From NCBI RefSeq assembly GCF_000292915.1, contig NC_018513.1, positions 3,348,001 through 3,412,000 of the forward strand: DNA of 64,000 nt, given 5' to 3'. Source of the DNA: Burkholderia cepacia GG4 (GTDB lineage Bacteria; Pseudomonadota; Gammaproteobacteria; Burkholderiales; Burkholderiaceae). Shown here piece by piece: positions 3,966 to 64,000 of this stretch. Position 1 is the stretch's first letter, and each line of letters begins with the position of its first letter. The notes under the pieces are model-generated. The model saw nothing but the letters and a program-made list of their open reading frames with translations. It was not told the DNA's origin and did not search any database. The position numbers were made by a program, and so were the translations under genes.

Positions 3966-3976
3966 TAGGACAGGCC

Positions 3977-4603
3977 TCAAACGTTGACAAACAGATTCGC
4001 GCTACTATGAAGTCCACTTTCATGAAATAGCTTGCTGTATTGCGCGCCTTCGTCTGCAATGCCCTCGCGGAATCCAAACTCGTCGCAAAAAATCCGAATT
4101 AAATCGTCACCACCCGGCGACTCACCGCGAAATGAATAATCCCGATATAGAAATATACTAAGAGCATCGACCGGCACCAACCCGCCGAACAACATGTACG
4201 TCTTGGCGCCATCCGAATGATTTGCGATTAGACTGAATTCGGCGTCACCCCGCGAGCCGGAGAACGCGCAAACTTGCCTCATCGGCGACTGCGAACGAAT
4301 CGAGGAAGGTGCATACGAGCCAGCGACATTTTGATTGAACCAAATGTCGGCCTTCCCTTGACCTTGCGCGACGAAGGGAAGGACGTATGGCTTCTTAATT
4401 GGCCCACCAGGGACCGCAAGAAAAGTATCAAAGAAATCGCGGAAGTTCGGTCGCAGCCCCGATACTGCGCCCGCTGCCCGAGACGTGCGCTTGAGACAAA
4501 GATATCCCGCATAGGCGGGGTGTATCCTAGTCTTGCAAAGCAAGTCCAGCGCTTCGCGTACTGCGCTTCCGTTTAGTTGCCAAAGGTTCGAGGGGCTCGA
4601 CAT
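3977..4603 (-). CDS. Unknown protein of the methyltransferase-McrBC operon
   Basis: I do not recognise this 208-residue protein. It has no signal peptide or membrane segment and no nucleotide-binding motif. Visible features are an aromatic block with PNFRDFFDTFL (residues 53-63) and a C-terminal half rich in Asp, Glu and Phe. It starts 77 bases inside the methyltransferase gene and ends 12 bases before the McrB-like ATG, so it is cotranscribed with both. McrB proteins usually carry a DNA-recognition domain fused before the GTPase; that domain is missing from the neighbour. A separate recognition subunit is therefore a reasonable guess, but the sequence does not show it. Reality of the gene is supported by its lower-GC composition and tight operon position. 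Confidence 0.6.
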   Translation of the reverse strand: MSSPSNLWQLNGSAVREALDLLCKTRIHPAYAGYLCLKRTSRAAGAVSGLRPNFRDFFDTFLAVPGGPIKKPYVLPFVAQGQGKADIWFNQNVAGSYAPSSIRSQSPMRQVCAFSGSRGDAEFSLIANHSDGAKTYMLFGGLVPVDALSIFLYRDYSFRGESPGGDDLIRIFCDEFGFREGIADEGAQYSKLFHESGLHSSANLFVNV

Positions 4604-5687
4604 CGTCCGGTATCGCTATTGATTGACCCCAGACATGATCATCTGTTTTAGGAGCCAGATCAACACCTATCGCCGAACGTCCCATCTCGTTAGCCACGGT
4701 AAGCGCTGTCCCGGTCCCCATGAATGGGTCGAGCACAACACCAGGGCTTAAAGGAACTGAACAATTGCACGTCGTCCAGCCGACTGTAGCTTTCTTAGCA
4801 AACGTGAACTCACGGAAATAGCCGCCGAGAGCTGCCTTGGCCTCCGAGGCGAGGCGTTGTACTTCTGCTGAGTTCCGCCCTGTACCCGTTTGCACTTTCA
4901 GTGCCTTGCCCGCATCAGAGATGCCAGTCGCCTGAATCGCCGCAATATGGGACTTCGTCAGGCCTGCCGCCTTCGCGATCTCCATGGCACGCTTAGCCTG
5001 CGGCCGGTTCGTGTCAAGTTGTGCGGTACGTTCAAATACGCGCTCGGGAATGTGTCCGCAGACGGGGCAAGAGGCTCGCGGGCAAGCGAGCAAGACAGCC
5101 CGACGGACAATTTCGTCGGGAAAAGGGGCAAGGTGATCCCCCATATTCCGCTTAAGAGGGATATTCCATACGTCACCCGGATTCGCTCCGTTCCCGATTG
5201 CTTCCGAGTATCCAACCAAGTCGTAGAAATACTTTGGCGACCGCACGAAGTGAATAATGTACTCATGTCGATTCGCAAGCCGGTTCTTTGCCGGCTCTGG
5301 CATACCGCTTTCCTTGGTCCAGATGATACGGTTACGAACAATCCAACCGTCATCGATCGCAGCGGCCTCAAGTCGAGCCGGTACGCCTGCTAGCGTGCGC
5401 GCGTTGTATGAATCGCCCACGTTGATGAAAATCGAGCCAGTACGCTTGAGCACCCTGCGCCATTCGCGCATGCACTCAATCATGTTGATCACATACTCAC
5501 TCGGGGTGGGCTCCTGTCCGATCTGGCCGGCGAACCCGTAGTCCCGCTTCTTCCAATATGGGGGCGAAGTTACGATCAGATCAACGGAGGAGTCGCCGAT
5601 GGGAATGTGGCGAGCGTCTGCATGGTATCGATGTGTTTCCGCGGGCGAGATGCTTCCGAAGGCGATTGGTTCTGACTTGGTTCTCAT
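4527..5687 (-). CDS. Beta-class DNA methyltransferase (N4-cytosine or N6-adenine)
   Basis: An S-adenosylmethionine-dependent DNA methyltransferase of 386 residues from the ATG at 5687; a TTG at 5705 is an alternative start. Catalytic motif IV is TSPPYW (residues 40-45) and the SAM-binding motif I is VLDPFMGTGT near the C-terminus (about 318-327), so the IV-before-I order marks the beta class. SPPY favours N4-cytosine methylation over the DPPY usual for N6-adenine, though this is not decisive. An insertion between the motifs has paired cysteines (CPVC and CNC), possibly a zinc site. It should protect self DNA from the McrBC-like nuclease encoded downstream. A plausible -10 (TATACT) lies at 5730-5725. 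Confidence 0.85.
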   Translation of the reverse strand: MRTKSEPIAFGSISPAETHRYHADARHIPIGDSSVDLIVTSPPYWKKRDYGFAGQIGQEPTPSEYVINMIECMREWRRVLKRTGSIFINVGDSYNARTLAGVPARLEAAAIDDGWIVRNRIIWTKESGMPEPAKNRLANRHEYIIHFVRSPKYFYDLVGYSEAIGNGANPGDVWNIPLKRNMGDHLAPFPDEIVRRAVLLACPRASCPVCGHIPERVFERTAQLDTNRPQAKRAMEIAKAAGLTKSHIAAIQATGISDAGKALKVQTGTGRNSAEVQRLASEAKAALGGYFREFTFAKKATVGWTTCNCSVPLSPGVVLDPFMGTGTALTVANEMGRSAIGVDLAPKTDDHVWGQSIAIPDDVEPLEPLATKRKRSTRSAGLALQD

Positions 5688-5705
5688 TGGCGTCTTGGGC
5701 TTCAA

Positions 5706-6183
5706 CTGTCGGCGAATTCGTGAAAGTATACCGACGCAAAAGCTAGTCGTCGAGGACTTTCGCTGCCTCCCCGTCGGCTCGTACGCCTGTGTAAACGTAC
5801 AGTATTTTGGAGTACGGCGCCGTCGTCGGCAAGCGAATTGTTGTGCGCTCTGTCCCCGTCAAATAGCGGCCAATGCTGTTATGTCCCGAACTCATCGGTT
5901 GCAGGACATGGGACCACCGATGGTGGGAAATCCCTGTCGCTCCGGTCCTATTGACGAAAAAAAAGCCAGAGCGCGAAGCCCCGGCATTGAGCACAGGTAG
6001 ATACGGCAGCGGGATAAAAATGGCGCGCAGTGCGCCCGGTTCACTGTGAGAAAAATGGTTCTGGCCGGGTCACCGCCTACTTGACGGCCGCGTCTCGCGC
6101 GGGCCACGAAACCAGCCTTTGGCGTGCTGCCTCGCGGGCCGCGCGGTTGATGAGTCGGTTCACGATCGATTTGTGGAAGAAGA
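5706..6183. other. Stretch with no supported gene
   Basis: Between the methyltransferase and the secreted hydrolase I see no convincing gene on either strand. Short minus-strand frames (for example 5743-5994) have no recognisable domain and no ribosome site. The part next to the methyltransferase should hold its promoter, and a LexA-like palindrome lies at 5787-5802. The segment 6077-6183 reads on the minus strand as a basic peptide ending in TAG at 6077, but it has no clear start. Confidence 0.5.
5787..5802. promoter_or_regulatory. LexA-box-like palindrome
   Basis: CTGTGTAAACGTACAG fits the CTGT-N8-ACAG core of proteobacterial LexA operators, and the right flank continues ACAGTA as in strong boxes. 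It lies about 100 bases upstream of the methyltransferase ATG and about 70 bases upstream of the best -10 candidate, farther than a classical SOS operator. One such match can occur by chance in 64 kb. Confidence 0.25.
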
Positions 6184-6993
6184 CTACTGCGCGGCTGTAG
6201 TGGCTTGCAGCTTCTGGCCGATCCAGTCGTTGATGTCTTTCAGCGTGTTGCTTTCGATGCCGAGGAAGCCGTGCGGCGAATGACCGCCGCAGTCAGATTG
6301 CCTGTCGCCACCGCCTTCGTCTGATTCCTCCGTGACGAACGCAACCTTATTGCGCGACGCCAGACGCTGGCCGCCAGCATAGTTGGCGACGGGGCAGACA
6401 TCATTCTTGTTGGAGACGATCAGCACCTTGCTGCGGTACTGCTCCGGCACGTCGAGGTCGGAGATGCCGGGATGCTTGATGGCAACCGACTCGGGCGAGG
6501 TCAGCACGTACCCGTCAGCCAGCTCGGGTGCGTGCTCCAGCACGTTGCCGACCGTGACGGTCCCACGGCTCGTGCTTACCAGAGCGATTTTTGAGTTTGG
6601 GAAGTGCTGGCGAACTTGTGCAACGATTGCCCTCTGGTCAGCCAGTGCATCCTTGCTGCGACGGTAGTAGTCGTCCATGCCGCGCATCTGCATGTCGGAC
6701 GGCGCGTCAGTCAGGACCGCCGCGTAGCCATGCTGGACCCAAAAGTGGGCGGTACGCACGATAAAGTTTCCATGCTGGCTCGTCGCGCCATTCTGATCGA
6801 GCCGGGTGGTTCCGTCGCCACCGCTGTACAGGATGACGACCAGTGGCGGATTCGGCGATGGCGACTCGATGAAGATGCTCTGCGTCACGCCATCACGCGT
6901 CGGGAAGGTCACGAGGTCGCCGTGATCGAGCGGAGCCGCCGCCACGTGCGCGGCGATGAGCAACGCAGTCACTGCGCAATAGAGGCGTCTCAT
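6184..6993 (-). CDS. Secreted alpha/beta-hydrolase-like protein
   Basis: Using the ATG at 6993 gives a 269-residue protein that starts with a clear signal peptide (MRRLYCAVTALLIAAHVAAA), so it is exported. The open frame extends further upstream, but that part is Ser/Thr-rich and looks non-coding. The body resembles alpha/beta hydrolases: a strand ending PPLVVILYSGGDG near the oxyanion hole, ALVSTSRGT at the expected nucleophile elbow (usually GxSxG), an Asp in SNKNDVCPV and a His in CGGHSPHGFLG. The substrate is unknown. It lies downstream of and on the same strand as the zinc-ribbon protein and two other small exported proteins. Confidence 0.6.
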   Translation of the reverse strand: MRRLYCAVTALLIAAHVAAAPLDHGDLVTFPTRDGVTQSIFIESPSPNPPLVVILYSGGDGTTRLDQNGATSQHGNFIVRTAHFWVQHGYAAVLTDAPSDMQMRGMDDYYRRSKDALADQRAIVAQVRQHFPNSKIALVSTSRGTVTVGNVLEHAPELADGYVLTSPESVAIKHPGISDLDVPEQYRSKVLIVSNKNDVCPVANYAGGQRLASRNKVAFVTEESDEGGGDRQSDCGGHSPHGFLGIESNTLKDINDWIGQKLQATTAAQ

Positions 6994-7030
6994 GCACGGG
7001 TTCCTGTCGAGTGTTCGGTCAGTTGCAATA

Positions 7031-7534
7031 TCACCACCATTCCCTCCGCTTGAGGACGGTCTTGCGATAGTAATCGACGTTCGCGCACTGCCTGATGATG
7101 ACGGCCGACACGATCCAGAGAAAGCGGTCAACCGGAACGTCTAGGGCATCGCCAGCGATACCGAGGATGACGTCGAGCGCCAGCGCGACGAGCGACAGCG
7201 TGATGGCCTTTCGCCACATCCTGAGATACAGGTAATAGAACGGTCCGAACACGAACGCCCACAGGTTCGATGTAATCAACCTTTTCTCTTTCACGGTCAG
7301 TCGGTTCACTTCGGGCCACCGCCACCATCGAGCGCGCTCGCCGCCAGCCTTCTCAATGGCCGCAAAGCGTTGCCGCCACTTTTCCGGCAGCCCGGAGAGG
7401 TCATCATCGGCGACCGCTCGCGACGAGCGGAGCGCTGACCGCGCTGCGACCGAGGACGTGATTGCCTTGCCGCATCCCGCGCAGAAAAGGGCGCTTTCCA
7501 AAAACTGTGTGCCGCACTGCTCGCAAAACGCCAT
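7031..7534 (-). CDS. Zinc-ribbon membrane protein, DUF2628-like
   Basis: A 167-residue protein from the ATG at 7534. It opens with a zinc ribbon, CEQC...CAGC within residues 4-22, followed by a linker. A C-terminal domain then holds a WAFVFGPFYYLYLRMWRKA block and two hydrophobic helices. Zinc ribbon plus a short two-helix membrane domain with the GPFYY pattern is typical of DUF2628 proteins, whose role is unknown. The gene lies 37 bases upstream of the secreted hydrolase on the same strand, so the two are probably cotranscribed. Confidence 0.6.
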   Translation of the reverse strand: MAFCEQCGTQFLESALFCAGCGKAITSSVAARSALRSSRAVADDDLSGLPEKWRQRFAAIEKAGGERARWWRWPEVNRLTVKEKRLITSNLWAFVFGPFYYLYLRMWRKAITLSLVALALDVILGIAGDALDVPVDRFLWIVSAVIIRQCANVDYYRKTVLKRREWW

Positions 7535-7694
7535 AGTGCTGATCCCTTGGTCCGTATCGACGTGCCGTGTCACGGCTCATCGTGAGATCGAACTGGCAGA
7601 AGACTGCCGTTGCGGCGGCTCAGGAGCGACGACGTACCGCGCCGGTGAAACGAGCCGCCGCCACCAGACGGTGCCCGCCACCGTCTAAATCCGA

Positions 7695-8180
7695 TCACTC
7701 TTTCTTGATTGCCAGAAGCTTACTGCCGGATAGCTCCAGCTTTCGCCCTACCACCTTGTAGACGAGCTGGGTCAGATGGCTCGGGAAGTTCGGCGAATCT
7801 TCCTGCCCCACCTCGAGACTCTTGACGACGATCTGGTCGCCGTCGAATCCGACCGATTCGACTGAATTCGGGGGCTGGCTGGCCTGACTGCCGCTGCCGT
7901 CGGGAAGGAACACCCAAAGCCAGGTTCGCGGAGCCTGTCCGCCCGCGCAGCCGTTTGACAGGGCCGAAATGACGGTCACTGGGCCGACGCCCGTGAGGTT
8001 CCCCGAGTACGCCGACGTTGCTACGCCGTCGCCGGTATCGCCATCGCACTCTTTCGAAGCGACCCGTTCGACCTGCTTTTCATAGTGGGCGACCTGGGCC
8101 TTGCTGGCCGCATGGCACGGCATGACCGCGAAGGCCGCCGCCGATGCTGCGGCGGCGATTACGAATGTCATCAGCTTCAT
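7695..8180 (-). CDS. Secreted protein of unknown function
   Basis: A 161-residue protein with an N-terminal signal peptide of about 24 residues ending near CHAAS, preceded by a TAGGAG ribosome site. The mature part has two cysteines (in SKECDGD and SNGCAGG) that could form a disulfide in the periplasm. I recognise no catalytic motif and no family. It starts 10 bases after the stop of the next gene upstream (8190-8630), another small exported protein, so the two probably form an operon. Confidence 0.5.
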   Translation of the reverse strand: MKLMTFVIAAAASAAAFAVMPCHAASKAQVAHYEKQVERVASKECDGDTGDGVATSAYSGNLTGVGPVTVISALSNGCAGGQAPRTWLWVFLPDGSGSQASQPPNSVESVGFDGDQIVVKSLEVGQEDSPNFPSHLTQLVYKVVGRKLELSGSKLLAIKKE

Positions 8181-8189
8181 TTTCCGCTC

Positions 8190-8630
8190 CTACCCGAGTT
8201 GCATCGCGTCGTTGGTGTATTTCTTGATGCGCTCAACACGGGCGGCAAAGTACGCGCGGGTGTCGTCATCGTTGGCACTGAGTCCGTATCGCCGCAGAAC
8301 CCCATTCATGCGGTCCGCTGCCGCCGCATCCATGAAACGCGGATCGCGCGGGAAGCCCTCAGCGCTTGCCATTTCCGAGTCGATGAAGATGCCGCTGATA
8401 TCGAGCGCGACGCAAAACTCGACGCTCCGATCAAGTCCCTTGCGACCTTGGCGCAGGTGACCGTAGCACTCGTTCACGGCCGAGAAGATGCCCGCCACCC
8501 CGCCCTGCTTGTACGTCTTCACCGCCTTTTGGGCGGCAGCCATCAGGGTGATGTCCTGATCGGACAGGTGCTGTGCGTTGGCAATGGATATCGACGCGGC
8601 CAGAACGGCCGCGAGAAAGACTCGTTTCAT
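8190..8630 (-). CDS. Secreted protein of unknown function
   Basis: From the ATG at 8630 this is a 146-residue protein with a signal peptide (MKRVFLAAVLAASISIANAQ) and a GGGGA ribosome site upstream. The mature part is mainly helical by composition and has a Cys pair (NECYGH and VEFCVA). I do not recognise the family. It faces the XRE regulator gene at 8747 across a 116-base region holding repeated operator-like sites, which suggests control by that regulator. Confidence 0.5.
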   Translation of the reverse strand: MKRVFLAAVLAASISIANAQHLSDQDITLMAAAQKAVKTYKQGGVAGIFSAVNECYGHLRQGRKGLDRSVEFCVALDISGIFIDSEMASAEGFPRDPRFMDAAAADRMNGVLRRYGLSANDDDTRAYFAARVERIKKYTNDAMQLG

Positions 8631-8656
8631 CGAAATTTCCCCGCAAGGTAGAAATA

Positions 8657-8770
8657 ACACTTTGGGTTTGGTTATCGCGCGTACTTTACTCCAAACCAAA
8701 CTCAAAGTGTGTGGTATTAGGCCGACAGCACCGGAACACTTCCGGCATGCCTAACCAAACTCAAAAGTGT
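8657..8770. repeat. Three copies of a 17-18 base operator-like repeat
   Basis: The motif AACCAAACTCAAAGTGT occurs at 8694-8710. It recurs inverted at 8657-8673 (ACACTTTGGGTTTGGTT, one mismatch) and again at 8753-8770 with one extra A. The first two face each other in the gap between the divergent genes at 8630 and 8747. The third lies inside codons 3-8 of the XRE regulator gene. This layout fits operators for the regulator controlling its own promoter and the divergent operon. Confidence 0.55.
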
Positions 8771-9025
8771 GAAGCGCAACTTCTGTTTGCGGCCAACATG
8801 CGCCGCATCCGCAAGGCTAAGGAACTGACTCAGGAGAAGGTCGCAGAGGCGGCCGACCTGCATCCGAACTACGTCAGTTCGGTCGAGCGCGGCGAGCGCA
8901 ATATCTCCATCTGCAACATCGCGCGGATTGCCAGCGCGCTCGGTGTGGCGATGGCGGCGCTTGTTGCCGAGCGGGAACGCGACGGCGAAACCACTGCGAG
9001 CAAGCTCGGCGATACGGCACAGTGA
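8747..9025 (+). CDS. XRE-family helix-turn-helix regulator
   Basis: A 92-residue DNA-binding protein. Residues 14-80 form a Cro/C1-type domain: RRIRKAKELTQEKVAEAA (helices 1-2), then LHPNYVSSVERGERN with the recognition helix and the E-R-G-E-R turn, then the NIARIASALGV closing helices. The size and layout resemble restriction-modification controller (C) proteins and small phage-type repressors. Repeated sites around its start suggest autoregulation. It is divergent from the two small exported-protein genes and may govern them. A role with the methyltransferase operon 3 kb away is possible but unsupported. Confidence 0.75.
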   Translation: MPNQTQKCEAQLLFAANMRRIRKAKELTQEKVAEAADLHPNYVSSVERGERNISICNIARIASALGVAMAALVAERERDGETTASKLGDTAQ

Positions 9026-9096
9026 CGGGTTCCCGGTATGCCGGCAGCAGCGCACGCCGTGCCGATGTCGGCCGGCTTTGATGGTCCAAAGCAATA

Positions 9097-9379
9097 TCAG
9101 TCGTCAACGGCCGCTCTCCCGCCGCCCATGTAATCGGCGGTGTACCGACGGCACTCGTGCGACAGCCCCTGCGCATACGCAAGCACTTCGGCAAGCTCGA
9201 CCATCAGCCTGCCGATGGCGATGGTATGTGTTGCGACCATGTCGCCGCTCGCGATCCCGAGTGCCGTGAACGCATGGAGCAGCCCGATTGCCGAAAACCC
9301 ATCCTGCCTGCCGCACGCGCTGGAACGCCGGTTCGAAGCCGGTTTCGGTCGCGCGGACGGTAGTTGGGTTGCTCGGCAT
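9097..9379 (-). pseudogene. Small unknown protein gene, frameshifted by a 4-base duplication
   Basis: From the ATG at 9379 (CGGAG upstream) the frame reads sensibly for about 24 codons, to FQRVRQ. After the tandem CCTGCCTG at 9303-9310 (CAGGCAGG on the coding strand) the sensible reading moves to another frame, DGFSAIGLLHAFTALG, which continues through GRLMVELAEVLAYAQGL to TGA at 9097-9099. Removing one 4-base unit joins the halves into a protein of about 92 residues. Function unknown; it sits beside other small island genes. A sequencing error is the alternative explanation. Confidence 0.55.
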
Positions 9380-9381
9380 CT

Positions 9382-9696
9382 TCAATACTCCGAGGGCAGC
9401 AATAAGGTTGTCACGCTACGGTCGGCCTCGGTGATGATCCGGCAGCGTTCGGCGGCAACGCTGAAGCTCGACAGGATGCGCGAGCCGTGGCGTACTGCCT
9501 GCCAGTTCGATTTCGCGTCTTCGGGTGGTACATCGCCCCAATCGCCCGTGACATGGCGACGGAGAAACTGGTCGGCGGCGATGCCGTGACGGTCGAGTAG
9601 ATCGAGTGCGCCGGGCGTCGCGACAATTCGGCCCAAGGAAAATAGCGGCGTGGTCGGTTGGCTGCGTAGAGCCGAGTTCGAGTAAGTGCAGGTCAT
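9382..9696 (-). CDS. Small unknown protein common on integrative elements
   Basis: A 104-residue soluble protein from the ATG at 9696, with a GGAG ribosome site. The central pattern (FSLGRIVATPGALDLLDRHG, then FLRRHVTGDWGDV, then CRIITEADRSVTTLLLP) is one I have seen in plasmid and island proteins of proteobacteria. These are often loosely annotated as a type I restriction subunit, but the protein has no methyltransferase or nuclease motif and that name is not supported. It precedes the frameshifted gene by two bases, so they were probably cotranscribed. Confidence 0.6.
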   Translation of the reverse strand: MTCTYSNSALRSQPTTPLFSLGRIVATPGALDLLDRHGIAADQFLRRHVTGDWGDVPPEDAKSNWQAVRHGSRILSSFSVAAERCRIITEADRSVTTLLLPSEY

Positions 9697-9740
9697 GGGA
9701 ACTCCGTTTGGGTAACAACCGTCGAGGGCCGTAAACGCAC

Positions 9741-9769
9741 AAGAGCCAGTGCTGCGAACACTGGCTCTT
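9741..9769. terminator. Perfect 11-bp hairpin, possible terminator
   Basis: AAGAGCCAGTG (9741-9751) and its exact complement CACTGGCTCTT (9759-9769) enclose a 7-base loop. It lies between the genes ending at 9811 and starting at 9696. No long T-run follows on either strand, so it may be a weak terminator or an RNA processing/stability element. Confidence 0.45.
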
Positions 9770-9810
9770 GATGCTTGGGTGATGGGTGACTACGGTTCTG
9801 GTACGCGGGA

Positions 9811-10326
9811 TTACTTGCTCGTTCCGGCTTTGGTGTTCATCGCATGGATACCGATTGCCCAATGGCCGGCGATATTCTTGAAGTTGGTGCGTACGCGGTC
9901 GGCCGGCTTCTGCCACGGTGCTGGGTCAAGTGCGTACTCGATCGTCGTGCCGGACGCATGCGTGGCGCGGCCGCGATGGAACAAGATATGTCGCCCCATC
10001 TCAAGTTCCGTTGAGTAGTCCACCAACAGAAAAGCTACGTCAGGCAGATCAGCTACCTTGGAGATCTCCTTGTACACGCTCGCGACAAATCCCAACTGCG
10101 CGAGCAGCGCCGCAATCTGCGACTCGCCAAGGTAGTACGGGCCATGAGCCGGATGCCGCGTCTTGGCGATGGCGATCTCGCGCACCTGCTCAATCGTCTT
10201 GCCTGAGAGCATCGCGGCGCACGCGAAGACGTCATCGAAGTCGTTGGTCTGTGAGACGAATGGAAACGCGGGCGTGAAGGTCGTCGGTGTGCTCTCGACG
10301 GTGGTTGGGAGGGTAATCGCAGGCAT
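9811..10326 (-). CDS. Unknown island protein with C39-peptidase-like pattern
   Basis: From the ATG at 10326 (AGGAG upstream) this is a 171-residue protein without a signal peptide. The order of blocks suggests a papain-like C39 fold: Cys in FDDVFACAAML, a GESQIAALLAQLGF helix, then HILFHR with a possible catalytic His, then EYALDP with a possible Asp. C39 domains process or bind peptide leaders. The similarity is in pattern only and the usual Gln before Cys is not clear. The open frame upstream of the ATG is basic and looks non-coding. Confidence 0.5.
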   Translation of the reverse strand: MPAITLPTTVESTPTTFTPAFPFVSQTNDFDDVFACAAMLSGKTIEQVREIAIAKTRHPAHGPYYLGESQIAALLAQLGFVASVYKEISKVADLPDVAFLLVDYSTELEMGRHILFHRGRATHASGTTIEYALDPAPWQKPADRVRTNFKNIAGHWAIGIHAMNTKAGTSK

Positions 10327-10582
10327 GGTAGCTCCTGAAAACGCAAAAATAGAGCGCGCAGCAACGCCTGCCTGGCGGCATCGGACATTTCGGGCAGATC
10401 GGAAGGGAAAATTCGAGGCGAAATCCGGCCAAACTCCGGCGGATTTGCTCAGGCGTGCGCTGCGGCGCATGGAAAACCGAGCAGTGCGGTGTGGCGAGCA
10501 ACTTTTCGGCTTAACCACATTTTATCAGGGGCAAATCACTTAGCGTCGACCAAATAACTTTGGCCAGGCTGGCGAAATTCGA

Positions 10583-11809
10583 CTAATTGCCACTCCAATT
10601 CCGCCGAAAATCGCTGAGCACCACCTCTTTTCCGCTAGCCGCAATATCCAGATAATCCGACCAGACCTGCATCATCTGCCTCCGCTCGGCCAGGTACAGC
10701 GCGCGGTTATACGCGGCCCGTACTTTGTTCCGCTCGGCGTGCGCGAGCTGCCGCTCAATCCAGTCGGGATGAAATCCCATTTCATTCAGAATGGTCGACG
10801 CCGTGGCACGAAACCCATGTCCGGTTGCGCGTGAGTGATAGCCCAGCCGGTACAACGCGTAGAGCAATGTATTCTCACTGATCCATTTGTTGCGACGCCC
10901 GTTGCCCGACGGAAACACGAGATCTGAACCAGCGCCAACGGCCTGCAACTGCCGAAGCAAGGCAACTGCCTGCTTCGACAACGGAACAATGTGCTCTTCC
11001 CGCATCTTCATGCGTTCCGCAGGGATGCGCCATTCACTCAATTCCAGATTGAACTCGGCCCAGCTGGCTGCACGTAGTTCGCCCGTCCGAACGAAAGTGT
11101 GAACCATCAACTGAAGTCCTAACCTGGTTTGAGGATCACCGTCGTACCCGGCCAGCTTGGCCAAGAATTCCGGCAATTCGTCGTGCGCCAATGCGGCGTG
11201 ATGCTTGCGTTCCGGCGTCTTCAACGCACCTCGCAACTCGGCCGCCGGGTTGGCAACAATCCGCCCCGTCGCGACCGCATATCGAAAGACCGCGTTGCAG
11301 CGCTGCAAAACCCGCCCCGCGATCTCCAATGCCCCTCGCTTCTCGATCACGCGCAATGCCATCAGTAAGTCAGGGGCGCTGATCGAGCCAATAGGGCGAT
11401 CACCCAGCCTCGGAAAAATATCGGCCTCAAGCGAATTCATGATCTTTTTTGCGTGGGATTCGGTCCACGCCGATCGCTTCGTCTTGTGCCACTCACGGGC
11501 AATGAGTTCGAACGTCGTCGCCTGCTCCTCGGATCTGCGTCGGACGGTCTGCTTTCGCTCGATGACAGGATCGATCCCCTGTTTGATGAGCTTTTTCGCC
11601 TCATCGCGCATCTGCCGCGCCTCGGCTAGCGACACCTGCGGATAGACACCGAGAGCGTAAATCTTCTGCTTGCCGTGCAGGCGAAAGGCGAGCCGCCAGT
11701 ATTTGCCGCCGTTCGGCGTAACGTGGAGGTACATGCCACCGCCGTCGGCAAGCTTGTACGGCTTGTCGGAAGGCTTGAGGTTCCGAACTGCAGTATCTGT
11801 AAGGGACAT
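10583..11809 (-). CDS. P4-type tyrosine integrase
   Basis: From the ATG at 11809 this is a 408-residue site-specific recombinase. It has the N-terminal DUF4102 arm-binding domain (LTDTAVRNLKPSDKPYKLADGGGMYLHV), a core-binding region around residues 100-190, and a C-terminal catalytic domain. Catalytic residues visible are Arg in FVRTGELRAASW, the HGFRATAST block (His-x-x-Arg), His in LAHAERNKVRAAYNR and the Tyr of that same block. It should integrate and excise the island at the neighbouring tRNA-Thr gene, whose 3' end lies 161 bases upstream of its start. All key residues are present, so it looks functional. Confidence 0.92.
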   Translation of the reverse strand: MSLTDTAVRNLKPSDKPYKLADGGGMYLHVTPNGGKYWRLAFRLHGKQKIYALGVYPQVSLAEARQMRDEAKKLIKQGIDPVIERKQTVRRRSEEQATTFELIAREWHKTKRSAWTESHAKKIMNSLEADIFPRLGDRPIGSISAPDLLMALRVIEKRGALEIAGRVLQRCNAVFRYAVATGRIVANPAAELRGALKTPERKHHAALAHDELPEFLAKLAGYDGDPQTRLGLQLMVHTFVRTGELRAASWAEFNLELSEWRIPAERMKMREEHIVPLSKQAVALLRQLQAVGAGSDLVFPSGNGRRNKWISENTLLYALYRLGYHSRATGHGFRATASTILNEMGFHPDWIERQLAHAERNKVRAAYNRALYLAERRQMMQVWSDYLDIAASGKEVVLSDFRRNWSGN

Positions 11810-11970
11810 TTGACTGATACCAACATTTTTCGCGTCGATACCAACCAATATACCATCACCGATACCAGCAATCAGCGCACGATCACGGACGCCGAAAAAC
11901 AAAAAACCCCGCAAAATCAATGATCTCACGGGGTTTTCTGGTCACCGCCGTACGTCAGCGGATGGATATA

Positions 11971-12046
<76 letters not shown>

Positions 12047-18565: not shown

Positions 18566-19348
18566 TCAACTCGCGGCGCCGTTCTCCGCCTCGGGCGCTT
18601 CCGTCGGCTTCGGCACGAAGAAGCGCGCAGCCAGCAGCCCCACCTCGAACAGCACGATGAGCGGCAGCGCGAGCATCAGTTGCGAGAACACGTCCGGCGG
18701 CGTGACGACCGCTGCGACAACGAATGCGCCGACGATCACGTACGGCCGGATCTCCTTCAGCTTCTTCAGCGTCAGCACCCCCATCCGCACCAGCAGCACG
18801 ACGATGATCGGTACTTCGAACGTGACCCCGAACGCGATGAACATCCCGAGCACGAAGCTCAGATAGTTGTCGATGTCGGTCGACATCTCCGCGCCGAGCG
18901 GTGCGTTGTAGTGCGCCATCACGCGAAAGATCGTCGGGAACACGAGGAAGTACGCGAACGCCATCCCGCACAGGAACAGGAAGTAGCTGCTGCCGACGAG
19001 CGGCACGACGAGCTTCTTCTCGTGCTGGTACAGCCCCGGCGCGACGAACGCCCAGATCTGGTACAGCACGATCGGCAACGCGATCACGAGCGCGACGAGC
19101 ATCGTGACCTTCATCGGCACGAAGAACGAGCCCGTGACATCGGTCACGATCATCCTGCCGCCCTTCGGCAGGTTCTCCATCAGCGGCCGCGCGAGCAGCC
19201 GGAAGATGTCGGGTGCCCAGTAGACGAGCCCGAGGAACACGACGATCACGGCCAAGCCCGCGCGAATGATGCGATCGCGAAGCTCGACGAGATGGGAAAT
19301 GAAGGTTTCTTCCGGGGCGTCGCCCGGGTTCTGCTGGGGGTCGCTCAC
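18566..19348 (-). CDS. tatC: Sec-independent translocase TatC
   Basis: Core receptor of the twin-arginine translocase, which moves folded proteins across the inner membrane. With the GTG start at 19348 the protein has 260 residues: ETFISHLVELRDRI at the start (the conserved signal-binding cytoplasmic region), six hydrophobic segments and the F-E-x-P motif in FGVTFEVPIIVVLLVRMG. It is the last gene of the tatABC operon, 41 bases after tatB. The open frame upstream of the GTG overlaps tatB and is not coding. Confidence 0.95.
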   Translation of the reverse strand: MSDPQQNPGDAPEETFISHLVELRDRIIRAGLAVIVVFLGLVYWAPDIFRLLARPLMENLPKGGRMIVTDVTGSFFVPMKVTMLVALVIALPIVLYQIWAFVAPGLYQHEKKLVVPLVGSSYFLFLCGMAFAYFLVFPTIFRVMAHYNAPLGAEMSTDIDNYLSFVLGMFIAFGVTFEVPIIVVLLVRMGVLTLKKLKEIRPYVIVGAFVVAAVVTPPDVFSQLMLALPLIVLFEVGLLAARFFVPKPTEAPEAENGAAS

Positions 19349-42549: not shown

Positions 42550-43098
42550 CTACGCCCGCCCGACCGGCACCGACACGATCGGCAGGTGCGACACGCCCTC
42601 GTGCGACAACCGGCTTTCGAACAGCGTCAGCGCGACGAAACGCAGTGCGACCGGCCGACCGGTCGCGCCGCCGTGTGCCGGTTGTCCGTCAGCATCGCGC
42701 GGCAGTCGAGCGAGCGTGACGTGCGGCCGGAACGGCCGGCGGTCGGCCGGCACGCCGAGTTCGCGCAGCAGCGCGGACAAATCGGCATTCAGCGCTGCAC
42801 ATGCGGGATCGGCCGCGAGTTCCGCGACGATCAGCCTCGCGCGCGGCAGGCTCGGCCACCACGCGATCCGCTCGACCGGCTGCAACGGCAGTGCATGCCC
42901 GGCCGCGAGCGCCGGCAGGCGCGCGGCCAGCGCGTCGCATCGTGTCCGTTCGATCGCGCCGATGAACGCGAGCGTCACGTGCAGTTGCGCGGGCTGCGTG
43001 CGCCGCGCGCCGCGGGTGACCGGCAACGCGTGCAGCGCGTCGCGCGATGCCGTATCGGGCAGCAGCGCGACGAATGCACGGAGCCGGTCGCCGTTCAT
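42550..43098 (-). CDS. thpR: RNA 2',3'-cyclic phosphodiesterase (2H family)
   Basis: A 182-residue member of the 2H phosphoesterase (LigT) family, acting on 2'-5' linkages or cyclic phosphates in RNA. Two catalytic HxT motifs are visible: QLHVTLAFIG near residue 41 and RPHVTLARLPR near residue 125. The ATG at 43098 overlaps the stop of the symporter gene by 4 bases. Confidence 0.9.
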   Translation of the reverse strand: MNGDRLRAFVALLPDTASRDALHALPVTRGARRTQPAQLHVTLAFIGAIERTRCDALAARLPALAAGHALPLQPVERIAWWPSLPRARLIVAELAADPACAALNADLSALLRELGVPADRRPFRPHVTLARLPRDADGQPAHGGATGRPVALRFVALTLFESRLSHEGVSHLPIVSVPVGRA

Positions 43099-44585
43099 GA
43101 CTCGCGCACCGCCACGCGCGTGGCGGCCACCGCATCGGCCGAAGCCGGACGCCGCGGCAGCGGGCCGTGCTCGCCCCACACGTCGGCCGGCAGCACGCGC
43201 GCGAGCTCGGGAATCGTGTTGCGCGTGAACACCGGATCGGCGATGCCCTGCGCGCGCTGGTGGCGATAGTCGCGCCACGCGGCATGCGCATACTTGCCGA
43301 GCGCGAGGATCGCGACCAGGTTGATGATCGCCATCAACCCCATGCTCGTATCGGCCACCGCCCATACGAGCGGCAACTGCCCGACGCTGCCGAACATCAC
43401 CATCCCGAGCACCGCGACGCGGAATAGCGGCAGCACGCCGCGCCGCTGCGTGATGAACTCGACGTTGCCTTCCGCATACGCGTAGTTGCCGATCACCGAC
43501 GAGAACGCGAGGAAGAAGATCGCGACGGCCATGTAGATGCCGCCCCAATCGCCGACGTGGCTCGCGATCGCGCGCTGCGTGAGCGCCGCGCCTTCCATGC
43601 CGGTGCCGAGCTCGTACTGGCCCGACAGCAGGATCACGAACGCGGTCGCGCTGCAGATCACGATCGTGTCGACGAACACCCCGAGCATCTGGATCAGCCC
43701 CTGCGAGACCGGGTGCCGCGTGCTCGCGGTCGCGGCCGCGTTCGGCGCGCTGCCCATCCCCGCTTCGTTGGAGAACAGCCCGCGCTTCACGCCGATCGCG
43801 ATCGCCTGGCTGACCGCATAGCCCGTCAGGCCGCCGGCCGCCTGTTCGACGCCGAACGCGCTCTTCACGATCAGCACGATCACGTCCGGCACCAGCGCGA
43901 TGTGCGTGGCGACCGCATAGACCGCGAGCGCCAGATAGCCGATCGCCATCAGCGGCACGATCACCTGCGCGACCGTCGCGATGCGCCGGATGCCGCCGAA
44001 GATGATCGGCGCGCTCAGCAGCACGAGACCGAGGCCGACCGTCTCGCGACGCCAGCCGAACGACGTGTGGAACGCATCCGCGATCGCATTCGCCTGCACC
44101 GCGTTGAACACGAAGCCGAACGCGAGGATCAGCGACAGCGAGAACAGCAGGCCGAAGCCGCGCGAACGCAGGCCCGCCTGGATGTAGTACGCCGGACCGC
44201 CGCGATAGCTGCCGTCCGGGTGCGACACCTTGAAGATCTGCGCGAGCGTCGCCTCGACGAACGCGGACGACATCCCGACAAGCGCGGTCATCCACATCCA
44301 GAAGATCGCGCCCGGCCCGCCGACCGTCAGCGCGACCGCGACGCCCGCGATGTTGCCGGTGCCCACGCGGCTCGCGAGCCCGGTCGCGAACGCCTGGAAC
44401 GACGAGATGCTGCCCGGCTCGCCCTTGCTGCCGACCAGTTTCATGCTGAGGAACAGCGCCTTCAGCTGGATCATCCGGAACCGCCACGTGAACCACGCAC
44501 CGGCGCCGAGCAGCAGCGCGATCAGCACGTAATTCCACAGCACGCCGTTGACGGCGTCGATCAGCCCATGTACGAATGCTTCCAT
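43095..44585 (-). CDS. AGCS-family sodium:alanine symporter
   Basis: A 496-residue inner-membrane transporter with about 11 helices. Family blocks: GAWFTWRFRMIQLKALFLSM near the start, GTGNIAGVAVALTVGGPGAIFWMW with the sodium-binding pattern, YRGGPAYYIQ, and LFSNEAGMGSAPNAAATA. It takes up alanine or glycine with sodium. The gene has host-like GC and marks the left edge of the inserted bacteriocin region. Confidence 0.93.
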   Translation of the reverse strand: MEAFVHGLIDAVNGVLWNYVLIALLLGAGAWFTWRFRMIQLKALFLSMKLVGSKGEPGSISSFQAFATGLASRVGTGNIAGVAVALTVGGPGAIFWMWMTALVGMSSAFVEATLAQIFKVSHPDGSYRGGPAYYIQAGLRSRGFGLLFSLSLILAFGFVFNAVQANAIADAFHTSFGWRRETVGLGLVLLSAPIIFGGIRRIATVAQVIVPLMAIGYLALAVYAVATHIALVPDVIVLIVKSAFGVEQAAGGLTGYAVSQAIAIGVKRGLFSNEAGMGSAPNAAATASTRHPVSQGLIQMLGVFVDTIVICSATAFVILLSGQYELGTGMEGAALTQRAIASHVGDWGGIYMAVAIFFLAFSSVIGNYAYAEGNVEFITQRRGVLPLFRVAVLGMVMFGSVGQLPLVWAVADTSMGLMAIINLVAILALGKYAHAAWRDYRHQRAQGIADPVFTRNTIPELARVLPADVWGEHGPLPRRPASADAVAATRVAVRES

Positions 44586-45255
44586 CCAGAATCCTTGTAA
44601 ATTGCGTCAGTCACATGCGGCGGCCGCGCGAACGCGACCCGAGGGGCGACATGATATGACAGTTCGCAAGAATTATTACAAAACGAAAGGTTAAAGGATC
44701 GCCGAATATCACCGCCCGATGTGATCAGGTTAGGCGACGCTTCGGGAAGATGCGGGACGCGCAGCGGGGGAGCGACGAATGGATGCCTGGAATTTAAGTC
44801 GTTCCGCCAATCCCCCTTGTCACAGGGAGTGCTTGGCTCAGCGTCAAGTACCGATCGAAAGCAAATACTGCGACTGGCGATTCGCGACCTTTGACACTCG
44901 GAAACATTCGCAATAGCGAACCGCCAAATCGGCCACGCAACGTGCCGCTCCTCTCTTCGCGCTGTCCACACGCCAGGATCGACTGTCTATTGATCGCGTG
45001 AAAGTTTCCCCTGAAATACCGCCGTGCCATGTCGGAGAAGCCTCACCACGCGATTGGGTCATTCCCCATGCTGGCATCGCTCGTCAGGCACTTCGACGCA
45101 AATCGTTTGAAAGCATCCGGCCCGACGGTGACGAAATAAGCACATCGCCGCCATTTCAAAGATGGCAACACATGAAACTCTGCTTGCATCGACACTCACA
45201 AAACACGAATGCTATTCGATTCGGACTACAAATTTTTTACAGGATGGGATAAGAA
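44586..45255. other. 670-base lower-GC stretch without a supported gene
   Basis: Between the symporter start and the bacteriocin gene the GC content drops visibly. Short frames (for example 44998-45252) have no recognised domain or good start. The right end should contain the promoter of the bacteriocin gene; an AT-rich run with ACAAATTTTTTACAGG lies at 45227-45242. I found no CTG-N10-CAG LexA box here. Confidence 0.5.
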
Positions 45256-46377
45256 ATGAGGAAATCAAACGGTTCATTGGAACGTGCTGCCCATGCCGAA
45301 CAGACACAACGACATAAGAGGCGAATACTCGTTACCGGGGCGGTATCTTTTCCCCTCTACGCGCTGCAGAAACGATCGATATGCTTGGCACAAGCGAACG
45401 TCTTGCCGGAAATTTCGGTCAACGCACCGCGCCTCCCCAGTCTTGACGGATTTTCAAACAAGGTTGGAGGCGGAGGCGCGATGTCTGAGGCCGCACTCGG
45501 TTATCCCAAGCTCCTGTGCTTCGGTAGATATTGTTCAGCTACCGAGATGTTCAACAACGCAGACCACGGTGACATGATTTCCGTCACTGAAGAGTTCTTC
45601 AAGTTCCTGTTCGAGCACCGCAACGAGATATTCTGGCGCAACCAACTGACGTTGATTGGCGAGTTTACCGGGTGGTTGGCGCGGGGCGGCTATCAAAACT
45701 TCCCCGGAGCGAACTCATACAATCTCAACCGCGCCTTGGGCCAATATGGTGACGTCTCGACACTATTCGGCATCTACGCAAATCAGCTGAACGGGATCCG
45801 GCCGGCCTCTGAATTCCAGTTTTACGGCAATCCCTTCATGTTCATCGGGGCCGTCTATTATTGGGCTTTTGGAAATGGCGAACGCAGATCGATCAATCTC
45901 GAATCCATGAATCTAAGAATGGGCGTCTCGGATTTCGAATTGATCCGGTCAAGCATAGATAACCCTGGATATGGTCCGGGCACTTATCCGATCGACGGAC
46001 CGTTCAGCACGAATGTCTTCAGCCACGGTGCACAAGACTTCTGGTCCGCCACAACGGTAGGTCGCGTCTCGGGTCACGTCCGAGGAACATTGACGATGCA
46101 GGAAGACAACACCTATCGCTTCGCTGGGTCCTACACGTTGAATCCTGACAAATTCGATGCCGACCGCTCCAATCGACCGTTCCTGCAAGAATGGATGACC
46201 ACCGTTTTGCGAGAAATCGGCTCCACACTTGGCCACACCGACTATCAGATCTACTTCACTGGCGAGAAAGAAATCTCATTCTCTGGTCAAAGGCCCGTCC
46301 GGAACGCCGAAACGCGTCCGCCTCAAGCCGTTCACCGGCCATCATTCGGTGGACTCATGCGCCCAAGGCTCTGGTAG
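45256..46377 (+). CDS. Colicin M-like lipid II-degrading bacteriocin
   Basis: A 373-residue protein whose C-terminal 320 residues follow the colicin M plan. A TonB-box-like EISVNAP (52-58) compares with ETLTVHAP near the colicin M N-terminus. The middle domain has GNGERRSINLESMNLRM (207-222), and the catalytic domain has GTLTMQEDNTYRF, then DKFDADRSNRP (298-308), then DYQIYFTGEKEISFSGQR. Colicin M cleaves undecaprenyl-pyrophosphoryl-MurNAc-peptide precursors in the target periplasm. Two oddities: a basic, RR-containing hydrophobic N-terminal extension of 47 residues ending in AQA, like a Tat signal peptide; and replacement of catalytic His-Arg by Arg-Pro at 307-308. GC is lower than in neighbours, indicating transfer. 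A ribosome site (GGGATAAGAA) precedes the ATG. Confidence 0.82.
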   Translation: MRKSNGSLERAAHAEQTQRHKRRILVTGAVSFPLYALQKRSICLAQANVLPEISVNAPRLPSLDGFSNKVGGGGAMSEAALGYPKLLCFGRYCSATEMFNNADHGDMISVTEEFFKFLFEHRNEIFWRNQLTLIGEFTGWLARGGYQNFPGANSYNLNRALGQYGDVSTLFGIYANQLNGIRPASEFQFYGNPFMFIGAVYYWAFGNGERRSINLESMNLRMGVSDFELIRSSIDNPGYGPGTYPIDGPFSTNVFSHGAQDFWSATTVGRVSGHVRGTLTMQEDNTYRFAGSYTLNPDKFDADRSNRPFLQEWMTTVLREIGSTLGHTDYQIYFTGEKEISFSGQRPVRNAETRPPQAVHRPSFGGLMRPRLW

Positions 46378-46443
46378 ACGTAACCAACGAGGATTTTTCA
46401 ACCGTGATCGCAACCTCGTGTCCTGAGGGCTCCCAAAACGACC

Positions 46444-46818
46444 ATGATCTCAACAGTCACTCGCTACGTCGTTCGCCTCGTGCTTATTCTCGTCGCGACA
46501 GCCATCGCTCTGGTCTCTCTGTTTCTTGTCATCGTTGGAATTGCCAGATACGAGAGGGACGAAGGCAGTTGCCCTGATGCTCCGGCCGGAGAACTCGAGG
46601 CAAAAATTCTCGCATTCGCCAAAGAACAAGGCACCCAACTGAACGACGTCGAATTCACCGGAAAGCCCCGATATTATGCCGACAAGCTCGGCTGGTGGGC
46701 ATTCGATCTGAAGTCTCGCGAAGGAAACTACGGGGCGACGATCGATTGCGACCTCCGCATCACCGGTTTCGGGAAAGTTCAGAAGCTTCCCCTCGAGTCG
46801 GCGAAGCCGGCACCATGA
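46444..46818 (+). CDS. Probable immunity protein of the colicin M-like bacteriocin
   Basis: A 124-residue protein 66 bases after the bacteriocin gene on the same strand. One N-terminal membrane helix (about residues 9-33, RLVLILVATAIALVSLFLVI) is followed by a periplasmic domain of about 90 residues with exactly two cysteines (43 and 102). This is the layout of the colicin M immunity protein Cmi: short, membrane-anchored, periplasmic, with one disulfide. The assignment rests on layout and position, not on clear sequence identity. Composition matches the bacteriocin gene. A bidirectional terminator follows. Confidence 0.65.
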   Translation: MISTVTRYVVRLVLILVATAIALVSLFLVIVGIARYERDEGSCPDAPAGELEAKILAFAKEQGTQLNDVEFTGKPRYYADKLGWWAFDLKSREGNYGATIDCDLRITGFGKVQKLPLESAKPAP

Positions 46819-46853
46819 CGTCGCTCGACGGCACGCCGCCGACGCCCATAAAA

Positions 46854-46885
46854 AAAACCGGGCGCCCTTTCGGACGCCCGGTTTT
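46854..46885. terminator. Bidirectional intrinsic terminator
   Basis: AAAACCGGGCG (46854-46864) pairs with CGCCCGGTTTT (46875-46885) around a 10-base loop; the A-run to its left gives a T-run on the minus strand. It separates the plus-strand bacteriocin-immunity pair from minus-strand gltD. Confidence 0.88.
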
Positions 46886-46912
46886 CATCGAAACCCGCTC
46901 GCGCGCTTCAGC

Positions 46913-48379
46913 TCAGCGCGGCAGTTCCGAATGCCCCATCAGGTACGCGTCGACCGAGCGCGCGCACTGGCGGCCTTCGCGGATCGCCCAGACGACGAGC
47001 GACTGGCCGCGACGCATGTCGCCTGCCGCGAACACCTTGTCGACCGACGTGTAGTACGAGCGATCGCCTTCGGTCGCCGCACGCGCATTGCCGCGGGCAT
47101 CCTTCGCGACACCGAACGCCTCGAGCACGGTGGCTGCCGGCTGCGTGAAGCCCATCGCGAGCAGCACCAGGTCGGCCTTCATCTCGAACTCGGAGCCCGG
47201 CACTTCCTGCATCTTGCCGTCCTTCCACTCGACGCGCACCGCGATCAGCTTCTCGACCTTGCCGTTCTTGCCTTCGAGACGCTTCGTCGCGACCGCCCAG
47301 TCACGCTCGCAGCCTTCCTCGTGCGACGACGACGTGCGCAGCTTGATCGGCCAGTACGGCCACACGAGCGGCTTGTTTTCCTCTTCCGGCGGCTGCGGCA
47401 GCAGCTCGAACTGCGTGACCTGCTTCGCGCCGTGACGGTTCGAGGTGCCGACGCAGTCCGAACCCGTGTCACCACCACCGATCACGATCACGTGCTTGCC
47501 CTTCGCGAGGAGCTGGTCGACCAGCTTGTCGCCCGCGTTCACGCGGTTCTGCTGCGGCAGGAAATCCATCGCGAAATGAACGCCGGCAAGCTCGCGGCCC
47601 GGCACCGGCAGGTCGCGCGGCGTTTCCGAACCGCCCGCGATCACGACCGCGTCGAACTCTTCCTTCAGCTTCTCCGGCGAAATGGTTTCCTTCGCGAGGC
47701 TGCCGATCGACTCGGGCAGCGCATCCTTGCCGATGAACACGCTGGTGCGGAACGTCACGCCTTCCGCTTCCATCTGGCGCATGCGGCGATCGATCAGCCA
47801 CTTCTCGAGCTTGAAGTCGGGGATCCCGTAACGCAGCAGGCCGCCGACGCGATCGTTCTTCTCGAACACCGTCACGTCGTGGCCCGCGCGCGCGAGCTGC
47901 TGCGCAGCGGCGAGGCCCGCGGGGCCCGAACCGACGACCGCGACCTTCTTGCCCGTCTTGTGCTCGGCCGGCAGCGGCTTCACCCAGCCTTCCGCCCAGG
48001 CCTTGTCGATGATCGCGTGCTCGATCGACTTGATGCCGACCGGATCTTCGTTGATCCCGAGCGTGCACGCTGCCTCGCACGGCGCCGGGCAGATACGGCC
48101 CGTGAATTCCGGGAAGTTGTTGGTCGAATGCAGGACTTCGATCGCCTGCTGCCAGTCCTGGCGGTAAACGAGATCGTTGAAGTCCGGGATGATGTTGTTG
48201 ACCGGGCAGCCGTTGTTGCAGAACGGGATGCCGCAATCCATGCAGCGCGCGCCCTGGACCTTCGCGTCCGCGTCGGTCAGTGCCGCGACGAATTCCTTGT
48301 AGTGCTTCACGCGCGTGAGCGGTGCTTCGTACGCCTCGTGGCGGCGTTCGAACTCCAGAAAACCGGTTGCCTTGCCCAT
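46913..48379 (-). CDS. gltD: Glutamate synthase small subunit
   Basis: NADPH-oxidising subunit of glutamate synthase, passing electrons to GltB. From the ATG at 48379 the protein has 488 residues. Iron-sulfur cysteines are in [17 protein letters not shown] and [15 protein letters not shown] and NADPH sites are [19 protein letters not shown] and [11 protein letters not shown]. It follows gltB by 85 bases. Confidence 0.96.
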
Positions 48380-48464: not shown

Positions 48465-53168
<4,704 letters not shown>

Positions 53169-53416
53169 GGGGACACCGTCGTAAAGGGGCCTCGAGGGCC
53201 GTTGAACCATTTTTTTGTTGCCGTCGTTCCCGCTCCCGACGGGAGACGGCACGGCCGACAGTGGATGGGCAAGCTTCGCCCGGGCCACCGGAATTCGGAA
53301 TATACGCGACGAATCAAAGGAATAGCAACAAAAACCGCTTGATCGAACCCCAATTAAACGCATGCTCCGATCTGGTGCCGTTTTATTAGGGACGTATCGC
53401 TTTGGTGCAAAAAGAA

Positions 53417-53435
53417 GCGGCGCACGCAGCGCCGC
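53417..53435 (-). terminator. Intrinsic terminator after the RAYT-like gene
   Basis: GCGGCGC and GCGCCGC form a 7-bp GC stem with a 5-base loop. On the minus strand it is followed by TTCTTTTTGC. It lies 22 bases after the stop of the transposase-like gene at 53458 and upstream of gltB, so the two genes are transcribed separately. Confidence 0.8.
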
Positions 53436-53457
53436 CTCGTGATCCGCCTTTCCCGCG

Positions 53458-54171
53458 TTACTGCTGGATCGGCGGCGTGTTCTCACGCACCTTTCTGGGG
53501 CGTCCGCGGGGCAGCGGCGAGACGCGCCGGTTCGCGGTGCGCGCCGCCCACTCGCGGTAATGCTCGCCGCCGAGCACCCAGCCCTTCAGCGTCGCCTGCT
53601 GGAGCTGATCGGCCTGCCGCTCGTCGAGCGGCTGCTCGCAGAGCTCCTTGTACGCGCGCTGACGGTCGAACGGCGTGTTGCCGAGCGCCCAGTAGAGCGG
53701 ATGGTCCGTGATCAGGCTGTCGACGGTGAGTCCGACGTGGTGCCGGTAGCTCGACCAGCGGTATGCGTCGGCCGTCGCAGCCAGCTGCGCGCGCACCGGG
53801 CTCATCTCGACCACGCGGCTCGCGAGCAGGAAATAGCGCTCGCCTTCGATCACGGTCGCGCGATAGCGGCCTTCCCACAGGGTGCCGCGCCGCGAATAAC
53901 GCCGGTTGAAATGCGCGACGTAGCGGCGGCCGACCGCCTGCATCGCCTTCGGCAGGCTCGCCTCGTCGCTCGGCGTCACGAGCAGCTGCACCTGACGCGG
54001 GAGCAGCACGTAGGCATGCACCGAAAGATGGTGATCGCGCGCGGCGGCCTTCAGGCAATCGATGAAGAGTTCGTAATCCTGGTCGTCGACGAACGCGGGT
54101 TGCTGATCCAGGCCGCGCAGTATCACGTGCTGCGGCTGGTCGGGAACGTAGAGTCGTGCTAACCGTGCCAT
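53458..54171 (-). CDS. REP-associated transposase-like protein with degenerate active site
   Basis: A 237-residue Y1/RAYT-family protein from the ATG at 54171. The fold is recognisable: [17 protein letters not shown] at the start, [34 protein letters not shown] and YRWSSYRHH. In active members the motif after the third strand is N-H-V-H-L-L; here it reads R59-Q-V-Q62-L-L, so both HUH histidines are Gln. The Tyr expected in R-Y-I-E-x-N-P-V-R-A is Val120. It should not cut DNA by the usual mechanism. Length and frame are intact, which suggests a retained, perhaps DNA-binding, role. REP elements were not seen nearby. Confidence 0.8.
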
Positions 54172-63351: not shown

Positions 63352-64000
63352 TTACTGGCAAAGCGGCTGCCTTGTCGAGCCTGCGCCGCCGGCTTCCGGC
63401 CCTGTTTTTCCCGCATCCGCGTCGCCCGCGCCGGCCGTCTCGCACCGCGCGCCGACGACCGTCGGCGTGATGAAGACGACCAGTTCGCTCCGCTGGTCGC
63501 GCCGCGCACGGTGCCGGAAAAGCGTGCCCAGAACCGGTATTTTGCCCAAGAGCGGCACCCGCGTCACATCGTCCCGGTTCAACTGCTCGTAAATCCCGCC
63601 AATCGCGACCGTTCCGCCGTCCTCGACCTCGACGCGGGTCTGCACATGCTTCGTATGAATCGCCGGGCCGGCCGCGGTCGGCTCGCCGATGCTGTCTTTC
63701 CTCACGTCCAGGTCGAGCACGACGCGCCCGTCGGGCGTGATCTGCGGCTCGACCTCCAGCTTTAGCGTCGCGCGGCGGAACTGCACGCCGCTCACGCCGT
63801 TGCCCACCTTCGCCTGGTACGGCAGCTCCGAACCCTGTTCGACGATCGCCTTCACGCGGTCGGCCGTCACCACGCGCGGGCTGGACACGATCTGGCCCCG
63901 CCCTTGCGCCTCGAGTGCGCTCAGTTCGACGTCGAGCACGCGGCTCAGCGGCGCGGCGAACAATGTGAAACCAGCCGTCGCCGCCTCGAAGCCGCCGAGC
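63352..64000 (-). CDS. pilQ: Type IV pilus secretin PilQ, C-terminal part (5' end outside window)
   Basis: The frame is open to the window edge ([21 protein letters not shown] and onward), so the N-terminal part lies outside. The visible 216 or so residues are the secretin pore domain: [20 protein letters not shown], then [19 protein letters not shown], then [17 protein letters not shown] and [17 protein letters not shown], ending [11 protein letters not shown]. Secretins form the outer-membrane ring for pili. The order pilQ-aroK-aroB is conserved with pilMNOPQ upstream. The last 35 residues are an Ala/Gly-rich tail. Confidence 0.9.

Follow-up and report, generated by a model that had tools for sequence, protein, structure and literature searches.

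The gene burM of Burkholderia cepacia GG4 very probably encodes a burkhocin M of the BurM2 group, which is accompanied by a bmiB immunity gene and carries a twin-arginine-type signal; the protein would be exported most likely by Tat, cut after A45, taken up through a TonB-type step and directed against lipid II. The feature is of an already known kind, an antibacterial protein that Burkholderia direct at their close relatives; our analysis of the window (the whole stretch of DNA studied, 64,000 nucleotides) puts the predicted cleavage site on firmer ground and offers an argument concerning a blank in the published signal predictions. The locus contributes a conserved, testable signal and no new principle. 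The features are listed in the order of their coordinates.

43095..44585, minus strand: Na+:alanine symporter gene, left neighbour (PF01235, 5.4e-155)
45256..46377, plus strand: burM, burkhocin M (BurM2 group), precursor of 373 aa (open reading frame with an ATG start; Pfam Colicin_M)
45256..45390, plus strand: signal-peptide-like extension, residues 1-45, cleavage predicted after A45 (alignments, profile test, dN/dS)
45319..45324, plus strand: twin-arginine codons R22-R23 (14 of 14 rows of alignment A1, 21 of 22 rows of alignment A2)
45403..45429, plus strand: conserved box LPEISVNAP, residues 50-58, putative TonB-binding box (alignment; place of the published box, PMC4661593)
45790..46293, plus strand: ColM catalytic domain, residues 179-346 (Pfam; fold matches)
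46147..46176, plus strand: active-site motif DKFDADRSNR, residues 298-307 (aligned with DKYD...HR of colicin M)
46294..46374, plus strand: C-terminal extension, residues 347-373, with AVHRPSFGGLMRP (alignments)
46444..46818, plus strand: bmiB-type immunity gene, 124 aa (open reading frame; homologs; position and size as published, PMC4661593)
46913..48445, minus strand: gltD, glutamate synthase small subunit, right neighbour (Fer4_20, Pyr_redox_2; named by context)
48465..53486, minus strand: gltB, glutamate synthase large subunit, the longest open reading frame (GATase_2, Glu_synthase, Glu_syn_central, GXGXG)

The colicin M-type gene, its partner and their setting

The preliminary description had read burM as a colicin M-type bacteriocin, and a profile search against the colicin M family bears this out: residues 179-346 of the product match Pfam Colicin_M (PF14859) with an E-value of 3.3e-15 and 56.4 bits, the cut-off being 27. 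At E<=1 the product has no NCBIfam or PADLOC match. By sequence, its relatives in the PDB are pectocins M2 and M1, colicin M, PaeM and syringacin M. An AlphaFold2 model built from a 22-row alignment is of moderate confidence (mean pLDDT 65.7, with values below 50 in segments 1-86, 89-91, 154-164, 180-187 and 350-371); at E<=0.001 it yields 14 PDB fold matches, all 14 of the ColM type, with the best E-value for colicin M and the top target TM-score, 0.73, for syringacin M (4fzl_B).

The DxYDx5HR signature is present only in its degenerate burkhocin form (D298, F300, D301 and R307; N306 aligns with the His), so that Phe and Asn stand in the places of the Tyr and His of colicin M. In the published burkhocins, the Tyr is likewise mainly Phe and the His is absent; BurM2 of B. 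ambifaria AMMD has the motif DKFDADSSNR, and its Asp mutant D297A is inactive (PMC4661593). Beyond residue 346 the alignment leaves 27 residues, which is within the range of the burkhocin C-terminal extension (26-36 aa), a known feature of these proteins (PMC4661593 and the available part of PMC5821083).

In the alignments, P0002 and L028 show 86-87% identity to the burM product; P0002 is named B. ambifaria by its source and may differ from the AMMD BurM2 protein. Table 1 of PMC4661593 gives 373 aa for the burkhocins of B. cepacia GG4 and Burkholderia sp. A9, with a 124-aa BmiB encoded downstream on the same strand, and the burM product is probably this GG4/A9 protein. With AMMD BurM2/BmiB and the GG4/A9 proteins it shares the downstream same-strand immunity gene, the DKFDAD.SNR motif and the C-terminal extension, and with the burkhocins of the AMMD/GG4 clade a low-G+C site between glutamate synthase and amino acid symporter genes (PMC4661593). 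For AMMD BurM2, killing activity, its dependence on the conserved Asp and cognate immunity have been demonstrated (PMC4661593).

The C-terminal ColM domain and its fold are common to the burM product and colicin M of E. coli, and the same holds for syringacin M, PaeM and the pectocins M. According to the available part of PMC5821083, however, none of these has a signal peptide. Colicin M also lacks the C-terminal extension, its box is not homologous to the burkhocin one, and its immunity gene cmi is transcribed in the opposite direction (PMC4661593), whereas bmiB lies on the same strand as burM.

The bmiB product has one N-terminal hydrophobic stretch (by eye) and two Cys, in SCPD and IDCD, and no Pfam, NCBIfam or PADLOC match at E<=1. 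Among the matches listed (14 of the 24 others), both Cys are kept in 13 of 14 homolog frames; the homolog L065 has Tyr at the second Cys position.

The interval between the symporter gene and gltD (44586-46912) has a G+C content of 0.544, compared with 0.643 in the window. By open reading frames and Pfam, no gene for outer-membrane passage lies in it. The region 44580-46915 yielded no promoter-like site (shuffles, 1.4), its single terminator-like match falls inside burM (shuffles, 2.9), and Rfam at gathering scores gave nothing in 44000-47000. The LexA-type palindrome, CTGT-N8-ACAG, occurs once in the window (0.39 expected), at 5787-5802, far from burM. Elsewhere in the window, positions 1-12046 form a lower-G+C stretch adjoining tRNA-Thr (11971-12046, minus strand). 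It contains a part of an IS66 transposase (27-770), a McrBC-type component (1700-3019), an AAA_5 ATPase (3006-3980), an N6/N4 DNA methylase (4527-5705) and an integrase (10583-11929), and has the appearance of an island for restriction or defence.

The N-terminal extension and its predicted cleavage site

The twin arginines at 22-23, the A-Q-A at 45-47 and EISVNAP from residue 52, all pointed out before, are confirmed by the translation of burM (K21-R22-R23-I24-L25-V26, K39-R40, A45-Q46-A47, E52-I-S-V-N-A-P58), and residues ~24-38 form a weakly hydrophobic run. A Tat signal is defined by a twin arginine, a hydrophobic residue two places on, an h-region and a small-x-A site, and the extension has each of these elements. 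Over 13 residues, the peaks of mean Kyte-Doolittle hydropathy are 1.12-1.92, given here with no Sec or Tat yardstick beside them.

The extension suggested by the preliminary description to be signal-like is kept in relatives. Alignment A1 comprises the window's protein and 13 of 20 database hits; left out were P0001, which is the window's own protein read from a TTG start, and P0009, P0010 and P0014-P0017, where the N-terminus is missing or altered (the short relative P0009 has no RR). Across its 14 rows, the 47-residue extension has just three invariant columns, R22, R23 and A45. In alignment A2, RR is present in 21 of 22 rows, each of which also has L, F or M as the second residue after it and either Ala or Gly at position 45; the sole row without RR is L040. 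The rows of the alignments are not independent: there are several near-copies among them, and P0018 and L030/L049 represent a single protein. When related loci were read up to the box, RR preceded it within the likely precursor in 15 of 16, a count that leaves out the frame-split L029/L044, L035/L042 and L039/L043 and the window's own L027. The exception is again L040, where an ATG lies seven residues before the box and an in-frame FRR further upstream.

A profile was made from 17 related signals, with the window, P0002, L028, L040 and one duplicate left out, and it gives the window's extension 16.1 bits. When the extension was shuffled 2000 times, 1889 of the shuffles obtained a score; the best had 8.1 bits and none reached 16.1. 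In the comparison of the window with L028, dN/dS is 0.19 for the extension, 0.036 for residues 48-188, 0.043 for residues 189-346 and 0.20 for the tail, these ratios being rough, as dS exceeds 0.7 in each segment. With L035 the ratio is 0.30 for the extension and 0.12 for residues 189-346 up to the break, residues 48-188 being saturated and giving no value. The extension thus appears to be under constraint, though a looser one than that on the mature protein.

The cleavage site had been placed after A47, with the box close behind it. The position of the box holds, whereas the site itself moves: Ala at 47 occurs in the window's row alone, hence the conserved site is the one after A45, where 20 of 21 rows of A2 have Ala and one has Gly. 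At position 43 (-3) the same 21 rows have Ser (12), Ala (5), Cys (2), Gly (1) and Val (1); Ser or Ala thus accounts for 17 of 21, and the Cys is found in the window's protein and P0003. The predicted mature protein would start with QANVLPEISVNAP. Close behind the predicted site lies the box, conserved near the predicted mature N-terminus as is typical of burkhocins; in A2, L50 is kept in 20 of 22 rows and P51 and I53 in 21 of 22 each, with V or I at position 55.

Export, release and the start codon

Export signals in burkhocins are not a new idea, since Ghequire and De Mot reported already in 2015 that 14 of 16 of these proteins have a Tat or Sec signal (PMC4661593). Among ColM-type bacteriocins, the available part of the 2018 review (PMC5821083) ascribes a signal, attributed to Sec, solely to burkhocins, and the reason for the signal and its origin are left open there; the N-terminal secretion signal of burkhocins is also stated in the available part of a 2021 review (PMC8469651).

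In the reading that we prefer, Tat would most likely carry the precursor through the inner membrane; with Sec in its place, the remaining steps would stand. Removal of the signal after A45 would yield the new N-terminus QANVLP, with the LPxISVxAP box a few residues behind. BmiB would shield the periplasm of the producer, where protection matters because the toxin would pass through it. A further step would take the toxin across the outer membrane; outside, it would bind a receptor on related strains and enter via the box by a TonB-type step, and the C-terminal ColM domain would hydrolyse lipid II in the target periplasm. According to the available part of PMC8469651, lipid II hydrolysis is not yet tested for any burkhocin.

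The window encodes tatC (18662-19297), the only TatC match of the genome at E<=0.001, and the type II secretin gene gspD is encoded elsewhere on the chromosome; together they allow, and do not show, a route by Tat plus type II secretion. A secretin-domain gene at 63448-64000, which runs past the right edge of the window, scores below the type II gspD cut-off. Tat or Sec alone delivers a protein only to the periplasm, and therefore secretion instead of lysis, which the preliminary description had proposed, does not follow from the signal alone. It seems rather doubtful that all signal-bearing burkhocins M, the GG4/A9 and AMMD types included, are Tat substrates released from living cells via Tat and type II secretion, in a form extending to Trinickia and one more genus. 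Were this route true, it would be a non-lytic release of a colicin-type toxin, large bacteriocins being generally freed by lysis of the producer (PMC5821083, available part). A release of burkhocins from living cells, if real, would alter both the cost and the ecology of these toxins, and a periplasmic immunity protein would be needed already during export.

A serious competitor, to which we give somewhat under even chances, is that the signal only brings the toxin to the periplasm, where it could fold or form a disulfide in CFGRYC, with release by lysis or leakage. The lack of a dedicated outer-membrane exporter beside burM and the reason left open in the 2018 review are consistent with it; the CFGRYC-type Cys pair, however, is missing from the more distant signal-bearing rows, and hence this disulfide cannot be the general reason for the signal.

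It is improbable that the signal of this bacteriocin is of the Sec type and that its twin arginine is there by chance. Sec signals do not require RR, yet RR is kept in all 21 extension-bearing rows of A2, while the flanking residues before and after it vary. PRED-TAT calls Tat at >0.96 in 12 of 16 published burkhocins and, in favour of Sec, calls the latter for B. ambifaria AMMD (0.917) and Burkholderia sp. A1 (0.956) (PMC4661593); Sec is also the pathway named in the 2018 review. For the GG4/A9 protein the predictor stays below 0.6, i.e. makes no call (PMC4661593), which weighs most heavily against a signal in this protein; here the signal is argued from the relatives, and the published blank would be a predictor miss, not a true absence.

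Finally, it is very unlikely that the signal has degenerated in GG4, or that translation begins at a later TTG, with the protein remaining cytosolic until lysis: this would fit the absent PRED-TAT call, the Cys at -3 and the 330-aa predicted-protein cluster P0001 (15 members), which starts at a TTG at residue 44 and lacks the extension, but the extension is constrained by dN/dS and scores well above its shuffles, there is no in-frame ATG between the first ATG and the box, and the TTG falls inside the conserved signal and has, by eye, no clear ribosome site. The later start that the preliminary description had allowed for does occur among predicted proteins, and as the main reading it was rejected on the constraint on the extension. 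Export of the full precursor, most likely by Tat, is the reading that we retain.

Distribution, relatives and origin of the signal

Among 65 genomes of the genus, GG4 included, a burM match was observed in 17 and a bmiB match in 22. Both are present in 11 genomes, one of which, G053, has them on different contigs; a burM match is missing from 11 of the 22 bmiB genomes, and a match to the window's bmiB from 6 of the 17 burM genomes. The bmiB genomes without burM recall the orphan immunity genes of PMC4661593. In three burM-less genomes two bmiB-type matches lie side by side (G009, L068/L079; G021, L071/L080; G047, L061/L078).

The A1 profile matches 19 of 398 genomes of the family, GG4 included, in 4 of 25 genera. 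Outside Burkholderia, signal-bearing forms were found in Trinickia dinghuensis (L049; P0018) and in one more genus of the family (L036), which extends the 2018 statement on burkhocins slightly. A tie between the signal and the C-terminal AVHRPSFGG tail was considered and rejected, since P0018 and L036 have a signal-like extension and no such tail; signal-bearing forms hence do not need the tail.

The relatives without an annotated signal are P0025 from Cupriavidus, P0028 from Pseudomonas, P0027, and the tandem proteins P0024 and P0026. All of them begin within ~10 residues of a similar box (by eye), and the signal thus looks like an added front piece. A single origin of the signal would be a tentative reading of a 33-row tree: the signal label needs one change there, at a branch with support of 73/63 and found in 70% of 200 bootstrap trees, but the label had been assigned according to whether RR is present. 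As annotated, the Cupriavidus protein (L040/P0025) starts with MSIDIGTLP and is signal-less; in frame upstream of this start one reads FRRIFVSLYRIQLLLRNF, which makes the absence of a signal uncertain in this case, as it could be a decayed signal or chance.

P0024 (645 aa) and P0026 (635 aa) have tandem ColM modules in one chain, each with a box-like start; both have two Pfam Colicin_M stretches and no signal. A search of 399 Burkholderiales genomes with P0026 gave no match except the window's own burM. The available part of PMC5821083 describes two neighbouring ColM genes in Pantoea and does not mention a ColM-ColM fusion. In three other genomes, the copies of burM are split over two frames (L035/L042 in G059, L039/L043 in G044, L029/L044 in G048).
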